From Pseudomonas azotoformans (lineage in GTDB: Bacteria; Pseudomonadota; Gammaproteobacteria; Pseudomonadales; Pseudomonadaceae), in contig NZ_CP014546.1 in NCBI RefSeq assembly GCF_001579805.1, forward strand, positions 1,984,001 to 2,048,000: a stretch of 64,000 bases of DNA. The letters are read 5' to 3'. This document shows positions 1,173 to 36,302 of the stretch, one piece after another. The position numbers and the translations under genes are program-made. Positions within the stretch are counted from its first letter, which is position 1, and every line of letters starts with the position of its first letter. Below the pieces are notes generated by a model that saw only the letters and a list, made by a program, of their open reading frames with translations, was not told the DNA's origin and ran no database searches.

Positions 1173-1691
1173 GTGCGAAATTTGATTCTTGTAGGACCGA
1201 TGGGCGCTGGAAAAAGCACCATCGGCCGTTTGCTGGCCAAAGAGCTGCGCCTGCCGTTCAAAGATTCCGACAAGGAAATTGAATTGCGCACGGGTGCCAA
1301 TATCCCATGGATCTTCGATAAGGAAGGCGAACTGGGCTTTCGTGACCGCGAGCAGGCGATGATCGCCGAGCTGTGCGGCCTCGACGGCGTGGTATTGGCC
1401 ACCGGCGGTGGCGCAGTGATGCGCGAAGAAAACCGTCGCGCGCTGCATGCCGGTGGTCGGGTGGTCTATCTGCATGCGTCGGTCGAGCAGCAGGTGGGCC
1501 GCACCGCCCGCGATCGCAATCGCCCGTTGCTGCGCACGGCCAACCCGGAAAAAACCCTGCGGGACCTGCTCACGCTGCGCGATCCCCTGTATCGGGAAAT
1601 CGCCGATCTGGTGGTGGAAACCGATGAGCGGCCACCTCGGATGGTGGTCCTCGACATTCTTGAGCGCCTGCAACGGCTGCCACCCCGTTAA
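1173..1691 (+). CDS. aroK: Shikimate kinase
   Basis: Phosphorylates shikimate to shikimate 3-phosphate with ATP in the cytoplasmic chorismate pathway. The protein has 172 residues, normal for the family. The P-loop GPMGAGKS is at residues 8-15, followed by the shikimate-binding acidic segment KDSDKEIE (~residues 31-38), a Gly-rich ATGGGAV loop (~residue 76) and a lid-region arginine segment [14 protein letters not shown] start at 1173 is preferred because it puts the P-loop at the usual distance from the N-terminus. It sits 4 bases after the pilQ stop, so translation is probably coupled. The next pathway gene, aroB, follows after ~125 bases. Confidence 0.96.
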
Positions 1692-33612: not shown

Positions 33613-34383
33613 ATGCGGCGTGTGGTGTTCAATCAAAAAGGCGGCGTTGGCAAGTCCAGCATTGCCTGCAACCTGGCGGCAGTCAGCGCCAGCGAAGGTT
33701 ATCGAACCCTGTTGGTGGACCTCGATGCACAAGCCAACTCAACCCAGTACCTCACCGGGTTGACCGGCGACGATATCCCAATGGGTATCGCGGATTTTTT
33801 CAAGCAAACCCTGTCTTCCGGGCCGTTTTCCAAGAAGAACAAGGTGGATATCTACGAAACCCCGTTCGACAACCTGCACGTCATCACTGCAACCGCAGAG
33901 TTGGCCGACCTGCAGCCCAAGCTTGAGGCCAAGCACAAGATCAACAAGCTGCGAAAGTTGCTGGATGATCTGAGCGAGGATTACGACCGGATCTACCTAG
34001 ATACACCGCCAGCTCTGAATTTTTATGCGGTTTCGGCGCTGATTGCCGCTGATCGTGTGTTGATCCCTTTCGATTGCGACAGCTTTTCGCGCCAGGCCCT
34101 GTATGGCCTGCTGGCGGAAATCGAAGAATTGAAGGAAGACCACAACGAAGGCCTCGAAGTGGAAGGCATCGTGGTCAACCAGTTCCAGGCCCGCGCGAGT
34201 TTGCCGCAGCAGATGCTGGACGAATTGATTGCCGAAGGGTTGCCGGTATTGCCGGTGTACCTGGCCAGCTCCGTGCGCATGCGTGAGTCGCACCAGGAGA
34301 GCAAGCCGCTGATCCACCTGGATCCACGGCATAAGCTGACGCAGCAGTTTGTGGAGTTGCATAACCTGCTGGAAAACGCGTGA
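33613..34383 (+). CDS. Orphan ParA/MinD-family ATPase
   Basis: A 256-residue deviant-Walker ATPase. The signature KGGVGKSS is at residues 9-16, with LVDLDAQANST (Walker A') and IYLDTPPALN (Walker B). The family positions plasmids, chromosomes or protein complexes, or acts in gene control. No ParB gene or parS-like array is adjacent. ATG 33613 with GGAGG seven bases before it is preferred over an in-frame ATG at 33568. It is divergent from the pigment operon. From memory a ParA-like gene also sits near selO in P. aeruginosa, so it is probably resident and not part of the cluster. Confidence 0.88.
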   Translation: MRRVVFNQKGGVGKSSIACNLAAVSASEGYRTLLVDLDAQANSTQYLTGLTGDDIPMGIADFFKQTLSSGPFSKKNKVDIYETPFDNLHVITATAELADLQPKLEAKHKINKLRKLLDDLSEDYDRIYLDTPPALNFYAVSALIAADRVLIPFDCDSFSRQALYGLLAEIEELKEDHNEGLEVEGIVVNQFQARASLPQQMLDELIAEGLPVLPVYLASSVRMRESHQESKPLIHLDPRHKLTQQFVELHNLLENA

Positions 34384-34419: not shown

Positions 34420-34516
34420 GTCTGGCTATAGGGGTTAAGCCTTGTAACGTTGCCTACAGGTACTCCAGAATCCGCTGGCTTGTGCGTCTGGATGGGCTTC
34501 TCTTAAGGTTCTCGGG

Positions 34517-34713
34517 CCACTGAATTCTCAGTGGTCGGGTTTAGTAGCCCGTGTTGAGACGTACAGCAAAATCGTCGATCAGGACCTTCCTGAATTTGAT
34601 GGTGGCTGTACGGAGGGCGCTCTTGAGCGCGCCGGTTGCGTCTCCCGGTCTACTAACCTGCGTACAGCTGCCACCCCCGTTTAGTAGCGGTCGGTTGCGG
34701 CTCCTGCTCGGAG
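34517..34713 (+). ncRNA. Structured mRNA leader with competing pairings and a sequestered ribosome site
   Basis: Several elements precede the small gene at 34721. CCACTGA/TCAGTGG forms a stem at 34517-34534. A CGGG/CCCG hairpin presents the loop TTTAGTAG (34540-34547). TCAGGA/TCCTGA pairs at 34579-34593. GGTGGCTGTACG (34601-34612) pairs with CGTACAG(CTG)CCACC (34661-34675) around an inner GCGCTC/GAGCGC hairpin. A second TTTAGTAG loop lies at 34680-34687. CTCC (34701-34704) pairs with GGAG (34710-34713), which is the ribosome site 7 bases before the ATG. CGTACAGC occurs on both sides of GCTGTACG, and CTACTAA (34650-34656) can pair with either TTTAGTAG loop. Similar leaders recur before such genes in pseudomonads as far as I remember. 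The function is unknown. Confidence 0.55.
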
Positions 34714-34720
34714 ACGATCC

Positions 34721-34945
34721 ATGGTTAACCTTTATACCGTCACCCCCAACCTCCCCACCGAAACCCTCGTCCTCAACAGCTACGAAACCTTCTCCTCCGT
34801 CCGCACCCTGTTGCTCAACCTGTCCAACGACCTCACCGGCGAACACCGCGACGTGGCACTGGCGATCCACCAATTGAGCGAACTGGGTGTACTGCTGGTC
34901 GGCCAGATGATGGACCGTGAAGCCCCGGTGGCTCACACCCCCTGA
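34721..34945 (+). CDS. Small hypothetical protein of a pseudomonad-specific family (DUF6124-like C-terminal part)
   Basis: A 74-residue protein without membrane or signal segments. The pattern (TVTPNLPTETLVLNSYET, then a helix SSVRTLLLNLSND, then EHRDVALAIHQLSELGVLLVGQMMD) resembles the C-terminal half of small pseudomonad proteins annotated as DUF6124. Those are usually longer at the N-terminus, so this may be a short form. The ribosome site GGAG at 34710-34713 supports the ATG at 34721. The end overlaps the converging trxC by 13 bases. The function is unknown. Confidence 0.65.
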   Translation: MVNLYTVTPNLPTETLVLNSYETFSSVRTLLLNLSNDLTGEHRDVALAIHQLSELGVLLVGQMMDREAPVAHTP

Positions 34946-35604: not shown

Positions 35605-35904
35605 ATGCGAGTGATCAGTGCGAAGCAAATACGAAATGCCAAGGAAAAATGGCCTCACTCAGCCAGTGCTCTGGATGAGTGGCATCGGAAGGTCAAAGTC
35701 ATCAGCCCTGAAGATTTTGCGACGTTGAGAGCCGTTTTCCCGGCTGTGGATAAAGTTGGGGCGCTGCATGTGTTCAATATCGGAGGCAACAAGCTCCGCC
35801 TTGTTGCCATCGTGCGCTATCGAATGCAGCGCCTCTATATCCGGCATATTTTGGACCATCGTGAATACGACAAGGGTAAATGGAAGGAGTCATGGGAAAA
35901 ATGA
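35605..35904 (+). CDS. higB: HigB-family toxin (type II toxin-antitoxin, mRNA interferase)
   Basis: A 99-residue basic protein of the HigB/COG4680 kind: N-terminal ISAKQIRNAKEKWPHSASALDEWHR, then FNIGGNKLRLVAIVRYRMQRLYIRHILDHREYD split over residues ~55-90 with the usual conserved Arg/His/Asp near the end. Members cleave mRNA on ribosomes. Toxin gene first, antitoxin second is the HigBA order. The antitoxin ATG overlaps the stop (ATGA). Low GC compared with the neighbours supports acquisition by transfer. Confidence 0.88.
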   Translation: MRVISAKQIRNAKEKWPHSASALDEWHRKVKVISPEDFATLRAVFPAVDKVGALHVFNIGGNKLRLVAIVRYRMQRLYIRHILDHREYDKGKWKESWEK

Positions 35905-36302
35905 GTGTATTGATCGAGCAAGTCGCCGAGCATTGGCAGTTCGTGTCCCCCTTGTTGCGTAAGCCGAAAACCGAGGCTGATTACGATCTGTTGGTCGAGG
36001 CGCTCGACGAATTGCTGGATATCGTGGGGGACGATGAAACCCATCCGCTGATGGGGCTGGTCGATATCATCGGTGACTGGGTTGAGGCCTACGACTTAGA
36101 GCATTGGCCAATACCTGAGGCGAGCGGTGTCGATGTATTGCGGTCAATGATGCAGGAGCATGGCTTGACGCAAAGTGACCTGCCTGGGGTCGGCGCTCAG
36201 TCGGTTGTCTCAGAAATCCTGAGTGGAAAACGCCAGCTGAACGTTCGGCAGATTCGTTGGCTGGCGGAGTTCTTCAAGGTGCCGGTGGACATGTTCATCT
36301 GA
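35901..36302 (+). CDS. higA: HigA-type antitoxin, helix-turn-helix protein
   Basis: A 133-residue antitoxin. The N-terminal part (~1-75) is acidic and probably binds the toxin. The C-terminal Xre-type helix-turn-helix (~80-130: RSMMQEHGLTQSDLPGVGAQ, then VVSEILSGKRQLNVRQIRWL) binds the operator. The ATG at 35901 overlaps the toxin stop by 4 bases. ATGs at 35880 and 35892 are alternatives, but the AAGGAG at 35884-35889 lies too close to the latter. It converges with selO. Confidence 0.87.
   Translation: MSVLIEQVAEHWQFVSPLLRKPKTEADYDLLVEALDELLDIVGDDETHPLMGLVDIIGDWVEAYDLEHWPIPEASGVDVLRSMMQEHGLTQSDLPGVGAQSVVSEILSGKRQLNVRQIRWLAEFFKVPVDMFI

Follow-up and report, generated by a model that had tools for sequence, protein, structure and literature searches.

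What does the long leader in front of the small protein gene at 34721 do? In the 64,000-nucleotide stretch of Pseudomonas azotoformans DNA analyzed here (the window), short words recur around single complements upstream of this gene: CGTACAGC is present twice, at 34560-34567 and 34661-34668, on either side of its complement GCTGTACG (34605-34612); TTTAGTAG lies at both 34540-34547 and 34680-34687, on either side of CTACTAA (34650-34656); and CTCC (34701-34704) stands just before the GGAG at 34710-34713, a second GGAG being found at 34612-34615. A first-pass annotation had read these words as two nested either-or pairings that end at a sequestered ribosome site, i.e. as a switch for the small protein. 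Direct reading of the sequence placed each of these elements where it had been reported, with the exception of a further, inner CTCC, which lies at 34642-34645 and not, as claimed, one base later at 34643-34646. The leader repeats are real and beyond chance, and in MFE folding the leader (34500-34760) beat 200 of 200 dinucleotide shuffles (z -3.71). Our analysis indicates that the leader is very probably a chromosomal antisense module of the C4 type that represses the downstream gene, which encodes a DUF6124 protein.

The Rfam C4 family (RF01695) matched 34595-34678 with 67.9 bits against a cut-off of 45 (E 4.5e-11), which places the element within the family by score. No other Rfam family exceeded its cut-off in the 64-kb window, and no riboswitch family did so. 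The layout agrees with the score: two segments of C4, a' and b', are complementary to a downstream target pair, a2/b2 (7 + 7 nt), with b2 lying over the ribosome site, and to a second target pair, a1/b1, upstream (7 + 6 nt), with a promoter-like site farther upstream (Table 1). Two further models stayed below the scores needed for membership, i.e. c4-a1b1 (RF03163; 34503-34555, 41.4 bits, cut-off 46.7, E 5e-9) and isrK (RF01394; 34516-34599, 23.8 bits, far under its cut-off of 50). The names of the targets follow phage P1 usage and were checked on the annotated P1 record, in which promoter, a1, b1, C4, a2, b2 and the small ORF icd follow one another and for which the same models gave 68.8 bits (C4) and 51.0 bits (c4-a1b1). 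The first-pass annotation knew of no named riboswitch with such a layout, but the layout is that of the C4 antisense RNA family, as is evident from the Rfam match and from the flanking a1/b1 and a2/b2 of the P1 record. The window leader belongs to a named class of switch, of which it is a chromosomal variant present in many copies with diversified codes. It resembles P1 C4 in its fold, in the order a1-b1-C4-a2-b2, in its upstream promoter (here a promoter-like site) and in having a small ORF whose ribosome site is covered by b2; it differs in being chromosomal, in preceding DUF6124 rather than icd-ant, in having no terminator between b1 and C4, and in occurring as many copies with differing codes in one genome.

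Table 1. Features of the leader and the gene behind it, in window coordinates.
Feature	Position	Strand	Evidence or remark
Promoter-like site: -35 TTGTGC (34480-34485), 18-nt spacer, -10 TAAGGT (34504-34509)	34480-34509	+	
First leader hairpin of the c4-a1b1 element	34516-34535	+	RF03163 match below cut-off; paired in MFE fold
Hairpin CGGG-TTTAGTAG-CCCG, loop 34540-34547 = target a1	34536-34551	+	P1 record has a1 at the matching place
Target b1 (GAGACG), complement of b'	34556-34561	+	6 Watson-Crick pairs, 2 more by G-U (hand count)
Extra upstream CGTACAGC, can pair with C4 5' arm; lineage-specific	34560-34567	+	
C4 antisense RNA	34595-34678	+	RF01695
b' of C4 (CGTCTCC), loop and edge of third helix	34639-34645	+	Complement at 34710-34716 (7 nt) and 34556-34561 (6 nt)
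a' of C4 (CTACTAA), three-way junction	34650-34656	+	Complement at 34541-34547 and 34681-34687 (7 nt each)
Target a2 (TTTAGTAG)	34680-34687	+	
Weak 4-bp CTCC/GGAG hairpin at ribosome site	34701-34713	+	Sequence reading
Target b2 (GGAGACG), includes ribosome site GGAG	34710-34716	+	
DUF6124 protein gene, 74 aa	34721-34945	+	Pfam PF19619

The repeated words can be reassigned within this layout. The pairing of 34605-34612 with 34661-34668 is part of the C4 closing stem. The inner CTCC had been paired with the GGAG at 34612-34615; it belongs instead to b', which matches the ribosome site, and that GGAG lies inside the C4 stem. Of the two nested alternative sets, the one formed by TTTAGTAG and CTACTAA corresponds to a1/a'/a2 and is general among C4 loci, whereas the upstream CGTACAGC is specific to this lineage.

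The module is one of many. The same genome contains 18 C4 copies, all above the cut-off, and a second Pseudomonas genome (G005), searched alone, contains 42, of which 39 are above it. C4 was found in 138 of 149 sampled Pseudomonas genomes (above the cut-off in 137) and was absent from 11; the median was 14 copies per genome, with at least 10 in 94 genomes and at least 27 in 35. Among the matches listed for these 149 genomes, treated as independent, the numbers of C4 copies and of DUF6124 genes per genome were correlated (Spearman 0.87). Across the 18 own-genome copies, 8 pairs of the C4 helices were changed on both sides and the covariation score was 0.352, neither value being reached in 500 shuffles, whereas further pair types were no more numerous than in shuffles (130/500). 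As the first-pass annotation would have it, related sequences vary in a matched fashion, both in the C4 helices and in b'/b1/b2.

We quantified the matching of codes as the mean longest perfect complement in a locus's own flanks compared with the flanks of other loci, searching 170 nt upstream and 75 nt downstream of C4 with position left free; the permutations treat loci and strains as unrelated. For the 18 loci of the own genome, complements were longer in the own flanks at every target (a1 6.94 vs 5.00, a2 7.06 vs 4.50, b1 6.94 vs 5.16, b2 7.11 vs 4.77; 0/10,000 permutations each), and this was also the case for the best 30 of the 42 loci of the second genome (a1 7.03 vs 4.77, a2 7.07 vs 4.37, b1 6.70 vs 5.35, b2 7.47 vs 4.95; 0/10,000 each). 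When a2 and b2 were combined, the cognate gene was the unique best target for 15/18 own and 22/30 second-genome C4s. With a single site it was the unique best for just 5-9 of the 18 and 7-16 of the 30, and this weaker single-site specificity means that insulation between the modules is partial. The set of 132 Pseudomonas C4 copies consists of 18 from the own genome, 83 from loci of the protein's relatives and 31 best-scoring copies of the genus, i.e. the genus loci were taken by score rather than at random, and relatives of a single protein account for 83 of the 132. A perfect complement to a' of at least 7 nt occurs upstream of 130 and downstream of 131 of these copies, and outside the genus upstream of 25 and downstream of 24 of 27. 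Over the 132 copies a' takes 18 forms when read as a 12-nt segment, and a single form accounts for 88 copies.

Codes also differ at a single chromosomal site. Directly upstream of the leader is a ParA-like ATPase gene (33613-34383), which is likewise upstream in 30 of 80 loci of the protein's relatives, 29 of these with C4. The site adjoining parA was compared between the window and 29 strains with C4. In 28 of these strains the next gene encodes a thioredoxin, and in L066 the sequence ends before that point. L087, the second C4 of L067, and L125, which has no C4, were left out of this set, and the reverse-strand duplicates L102, L112 and L037 were removed before counting. The 30 strains have 13 forms of b', which by eye make up about six groups. 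Taking one representative per b' form, the complement in the own flank was longer than in others for both b1 (5.69 vs 4.70) and b2 (7.38 vs 5.01), with 0/20,000 permutations in each case. In single strains the complement ranged from 4 to 9 nt for b1 and from 5 to 10 nt for b2, short matches being those of L068 (b1 4, b2 5) and of L064 and L138 (b1 4). Part of the matched change may reflect the exchange of whole leader cassettes between paralogues, and the N-termini of the syntenic DUF6124 proteins, where by eye the first few codons (5-12 residues) are far more variable than the core, suggest the same. In L084 the first residues seem, by eye, to be read in another frame.

The promoter-like site of the window is a weak sigma-70-type site with 6 of 12 consensus bases, and a stricter promoter scan reported none at this locus. 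We scanned for sites of the form TTnnnn, 16-18 nt, TAnnnT, about 31 nt before a1, omitting loci with an a1 match below 7 nt or too near the locus end (which left 17/18 own, 30/31 genus-best and 25/27 outside-genus loci). Such a site was found in 16/17 own C4 loci (base shuffles 0.85), before 83/83 C4 copies of the gene's relatives (base shuffles 4.9), in 27/30 best-scoring loci of the genus (base shuffles 1.0) and in 21/25 loci outside the genus (base shuffles 2.8). From the position of the site, transcription would be expected to start near 34515-34517. A start downstream of 34660, which would have left most of the leader out of the mRNA and which the first-pass annotation had named as fatal to its proposal, is unlikely, because the promoter-like site at 34480-34509 has counterparts of the same form at a fixed distance in the other loci.

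The gene behind the leader is recognizable as a member of a family, with 89.3 bits against PF19619 (cut-off 27). In 30 syntenic coding sequences (the window and 29 strains, with L125 included and L138, for which no start was found, left out) the median dN/dS was 0.138 over 435 pairs, and the DUF6124 protein is therefore under purifying selection. Its predicted structure is a two-helix hairpin (mean pLDDT 87.3) without a match among solved structures at E 0.001 or better; a ciliary protein gave one weak sequence match (E 0.016). The window protein had no match in PHROG or NCBIfam and none among phage or plasmid records at E 0.01, and with a DUF6124 gene that lacks a PHROG match the locus falls outside the P1-type c4-icd-ant operons, in which an antirepressor is controlled. 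C4 was present in 79 of 80 loci encoding relatives of the protein and in 12 of 13 DUF6124 loci of the own genome, L026 being the one without. The exception among the 80, the natural strain L125, has a DUF6124 gene in whose leader a1 runs directly into the ribosome site, and it looks as though C4 was lost between the direct repeats a1 and a2. Among 195 sampled genomes of the order, DUF6124 occurs in 3, all of this genus, with none in the 190 outside it; C4 occurs in 30, of which 26 are outside the genus. Farther downstream in the window (0.7 kb), 35605-36302 holds a HigB-like toxin gene (PF09907, 81.4 bits) and, behind it, a gene that matches a helix-turn-helix domain weakly (20.6 bits, under the cut-off of 23).

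Could the leader instead act purely in cis, as a riboswitch-like element in which a ligand or condition decides between alternative folds (the upstream CGTACAGC or a1 against the arms of C4) that expose the ribosome site or hide it, with C4 never released? The MFE fold of the leader does join 34560-34567 to 34605-34612, the 5' arm of C4, and the upstream CGTACAGC is perfect in 9/30 syntenic loci. Judged by eye, however, it can pair with the help of G-U in just 5 more and is missing from the remaining 16 even so, while the C4 stem and the a/b targets are kept; in the own genome a complement of at least 8 nt to the C4 5' arm is present in 2/18 loci and lacking in 16. The complement between arm and spacer was longer for cognate than for other loci in the own genome (5.22 vs 4.66, 21/5000 permutations), at the syntenic site (5.33 vs 4.76, 0/5000) and among the relatives (4.53 vs 4.17, 0/5000), an excess that relatedness may explain. 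The purely cis arrangement is in our view quite unlikely: the permutation result is not negative, but the upstream CGTACAGC is lineage-specific, a C4 match exists and is the sole Rfam family above its cut-off in the window, and published C4 RNAs are processed and antisense-acting (PMC5320573, as far as its available text goes). The upstream CGTACAGC could possibly serve as a helper in this lineage. What stands of the first-pass interpretation, which is partly supported overall, is the apparent RNA switch, with its alternative pairings, at the ribosome site of the gene at 34721; a purely cis either-or form does not, antisense pairing being likelier.

Pairing of the ribosome site itself was also compared across C4 loci. 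On average it was more paired than after shuffling of the preceding stretch (0.658 vs 0.531; higher in 102 of 143 distinct regions), an observation that would favor control in cis. A ribosome-site stem of at least 5 pairs was common, being found in 10/16 own, 24/30 genus-best and 11/23 outside-genus distinct regions, but it was absent from all 74 distinct regions of the gene's relatives, and a strong hairpin of this type was rejected for the window locus. The 4-bp CTCC/GGAG hairpin of the window is perhaps a relic, and might possibly act as a helper. An attenuator between b1 and C4 was rejected in the same way: a hairpin followed by a T run is found there in 5/18 own, 17/31 genus-best and 13/27 outside-genus loci, but in 0/83 C4 copies of the relatives.

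It is extremely unlikely that the module is simply a repeated DNA element, such as a mobile intergenic repeat, that regulates nothing and whose RNA folds only incidentally. The copies are numerous and dispersed, some lie side by side, and the P. fluorescens intergenic repeat R178, described as 101 bp long with an internal inverted repeat and 18, 28 and 9 copies in SBW25, Pf0-1 and Pf-5 (PMC2718517, in the text available), may be a C4 module and hence the same element. A neutral repeat would, however, hardly be expected to show compensatory changes in its helices, codes matched right into the ribosome site, a promoter-like site at a fixed distance and a position before small genes in most loci.

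What can be read from the sequences is the fold of C4, its complementarity to the targets and the way both vary together, the presence of a promoter-like site, the family of the gene and the purifying selection on its protein; the processing of C4, its action in trans, repression and a decoy role for a1/b1 we infer by analogy with published work on C4 and IsrK. In the antisense module that we propose, one promoter (34480-34509) would give a transcript carrying a1/b1, C4, a2/b2 and the gene, from which C4 would be cut free (by RNase P, as in P1). The a' junction and b' loop of C4 would then pair with a2 and b2 and, because b2 contains the ribosome site, translation of DUF6124 would be blocked. 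The a1/b1 pair would provide a second binding place that could hold or titrate C4. The module would be self-limiting because C4 would be made in step with its own mRNA. Such modules, with differing codes, are numerous in many genomes, most C4s best fitting their own gene. By analogy with the RNase P site of known C4 RNAs, the mature 5' end is expected at G34601, in the GGT at 34601-34603; RNase P would trim C4 to about 77 nt. Points that weigh against this reading include the c4-a1b1 score below its cut-off, the b1 match of just 6 nt, the 4-5-nt b1 or b2 matches of some syntenic strains, the lower specificity of single sites, the possible exchange of cassettes, the missing terminator between b1 and C4, and L125 with its missing C4.

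In published work, as given in the partial texts available, RNase P cuts C4 RNA from its transcript, b' covers the ribosome site of the target and a' gives specificity (PMC5320573). The Group 1 C4-like sRNAs of A. baumannii described there likewise have many copies per genome and variable target loops, were seen by RNA-seq and are apparently processed; targets were proposed for them, but the text does not name adjacent cognate genes, whereas in Pseudomonas each code can be matched to its own flanks and the genes assigned to a family. The same paper cites Weinberg for C4 in Pseudomonadales among others, and Weinberg 2010 itself includes both c4 antisense RNA and c4-a1b1 among the RNAs of proteobacteria and phages. 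The IsrK/STnc1160 region of the Salmonella prophage Gifsy-1 likewise has one RNA upstream, another of ~80 nt that arises by processing, and a small ORF downstream, IsrK and the processed RNA having complementary sequences in common (PMC4825925). IsrK activates the downstream genes in trans, and it was not countered when the C4-like STnc1160 region was expressed constitutively (PMC4825925); by analogy, this failure counts against repression by C4. IsrK differs from the window locus in ending at a terminator, which was not found here, and in targeting orf45 and anrP. As the relatives lack a terminator before C4, a short IsrK-like RNA is not expected. The CI RNA of P4, with seqA and seqC, is also one small RNA between two complementary targets (PMC4825925), but it acts via transcription termination and is likened to the window leader by description only.

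Chromosomal C4 RNAs might also be directed chiefly, in trans, at invading phages that share their code, as an RNA superinfection immunity in which the adjacent gene is secondary. C4 is part of the immunity of P1 and P7, and such a role is one of two suggested for the multicopy C4s of A. baumannii in the available portion of PMC5320573. When the own C4s were compared with targets on predicted viral contigs, 13 of 1044 pairs, involving 12 of 58 targets, reached the cognate level of at least 14 nt (a2 + b2); among non-cognate pairs of the own genome 1 of 306 did so. The rate was, however, similar for the own C4s against the targets of the second Pseudomonas genome (5/540), and the C4s of the second genome gave 5 of 1740 pairs with the viral-contig targets. 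Moreover, all 12 matched targets precede ORFs that by eye begin with MxKxxPxPP, as DUF6124-type proteins do, and so may be homologous modules rather than phage antirepressors. With no clear enrichment of code matches on viral contigs, this reading was rejected as very improbable. One relative of the window protein (66% identity) is on a predicted viral contig (L264), and other C4-bearing viral contigs carry DUF6124-like starts, as judged by eye.

A broader reading is that Pseudomonas has converted a phage immunity RNA into a genome-wide collection of antisense circuits, in some genomes several dozen and largely insulated from one another, each a cassette of targets, C4 and ribosome site with a code of its own, for small helical proteins limited to the genus in our samples, and that these putatively sense phage: foreign transcripts with matching a/b segments would soak up C4 and thereby turn DUF6124 on in response to infection. 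The part concerning a bank of circuits is supported by the sequence comparisons; as a whole we consider this reading unlikely. C4 as a kind of RNA is already known, and it is the variant and its scale in Pseudomonas that are new; in the open-licence literature on C4, RF01695 and DUF6124/DUF3077, as far as its text was available, neither the control of DUF6124 by C4 modules nor the existence of matched code sets in Pseudomonas is described. The results offer candidate targets for chromosomal C4 RNAs, for which one multicopy report was found (A. baumannii, PMC5320573, available in part), and a likely regulator for the uncharacterized DUF6124/DUF3077 proteins. They also point to a single genome with as many as 42 natural antisense modules, mostly fitting their own targets best, a collection that could be useful for studying the evolution of RNA specificity and for building independent RNA switches.

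The genes behind C4 were also scanned for protein families. In the own genome 17 of the 18 were covered, giving 12 DUF6124 and 4 DUF3077 matches, some proteins having both, and L018 has a C4 without a recognizable small gene behind the ribosome site. In the second genome 29 were scanned, with at least 16 DUF6124, at least 2 DUF3077 and at least 1 Bro-N; these counts are lower bounds, as the ORFs were picked by a script and some picks look wrong (e.g. L172-L174, L180, L186 and L192). No ORF was picked behind C4 for L036, L160 and L185. Outside the genus, the 26 genes scanned included 5 Bro-N, 2 KilA-N and 1 Rha; these domains are familiar from the regulators of phages. Seven Pseudomonas C4 loci (L044, L046, L049, L050, L052, L053 and L056) have gene starts in common; the L044 gene matches phage antirepressors (PHROGs), and the Bro-N match of the second genome is, by length and start, L053. 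Loci of the L044 type therefore have the phage-type arrangement within Pseudomonas too. Proteins of about 52-60 aa with, by eye, a common core are found behind C4 in L002, L033, L034, L041, L047, L048 and others; L002 and L033 had no PHROG match, and L002 no NCBIfam match.

Some C4 copies lie in tandem about 0.8 kb apart, with three at G005:C1:3628832-3630617 and two at G000:C1:6056709-6057599. In L014, a second, degenerate C4-like hairpin that ends in a T run (1598-1680, minus strand; 40.2 bits with model R1) lies just upstream of the full C4.
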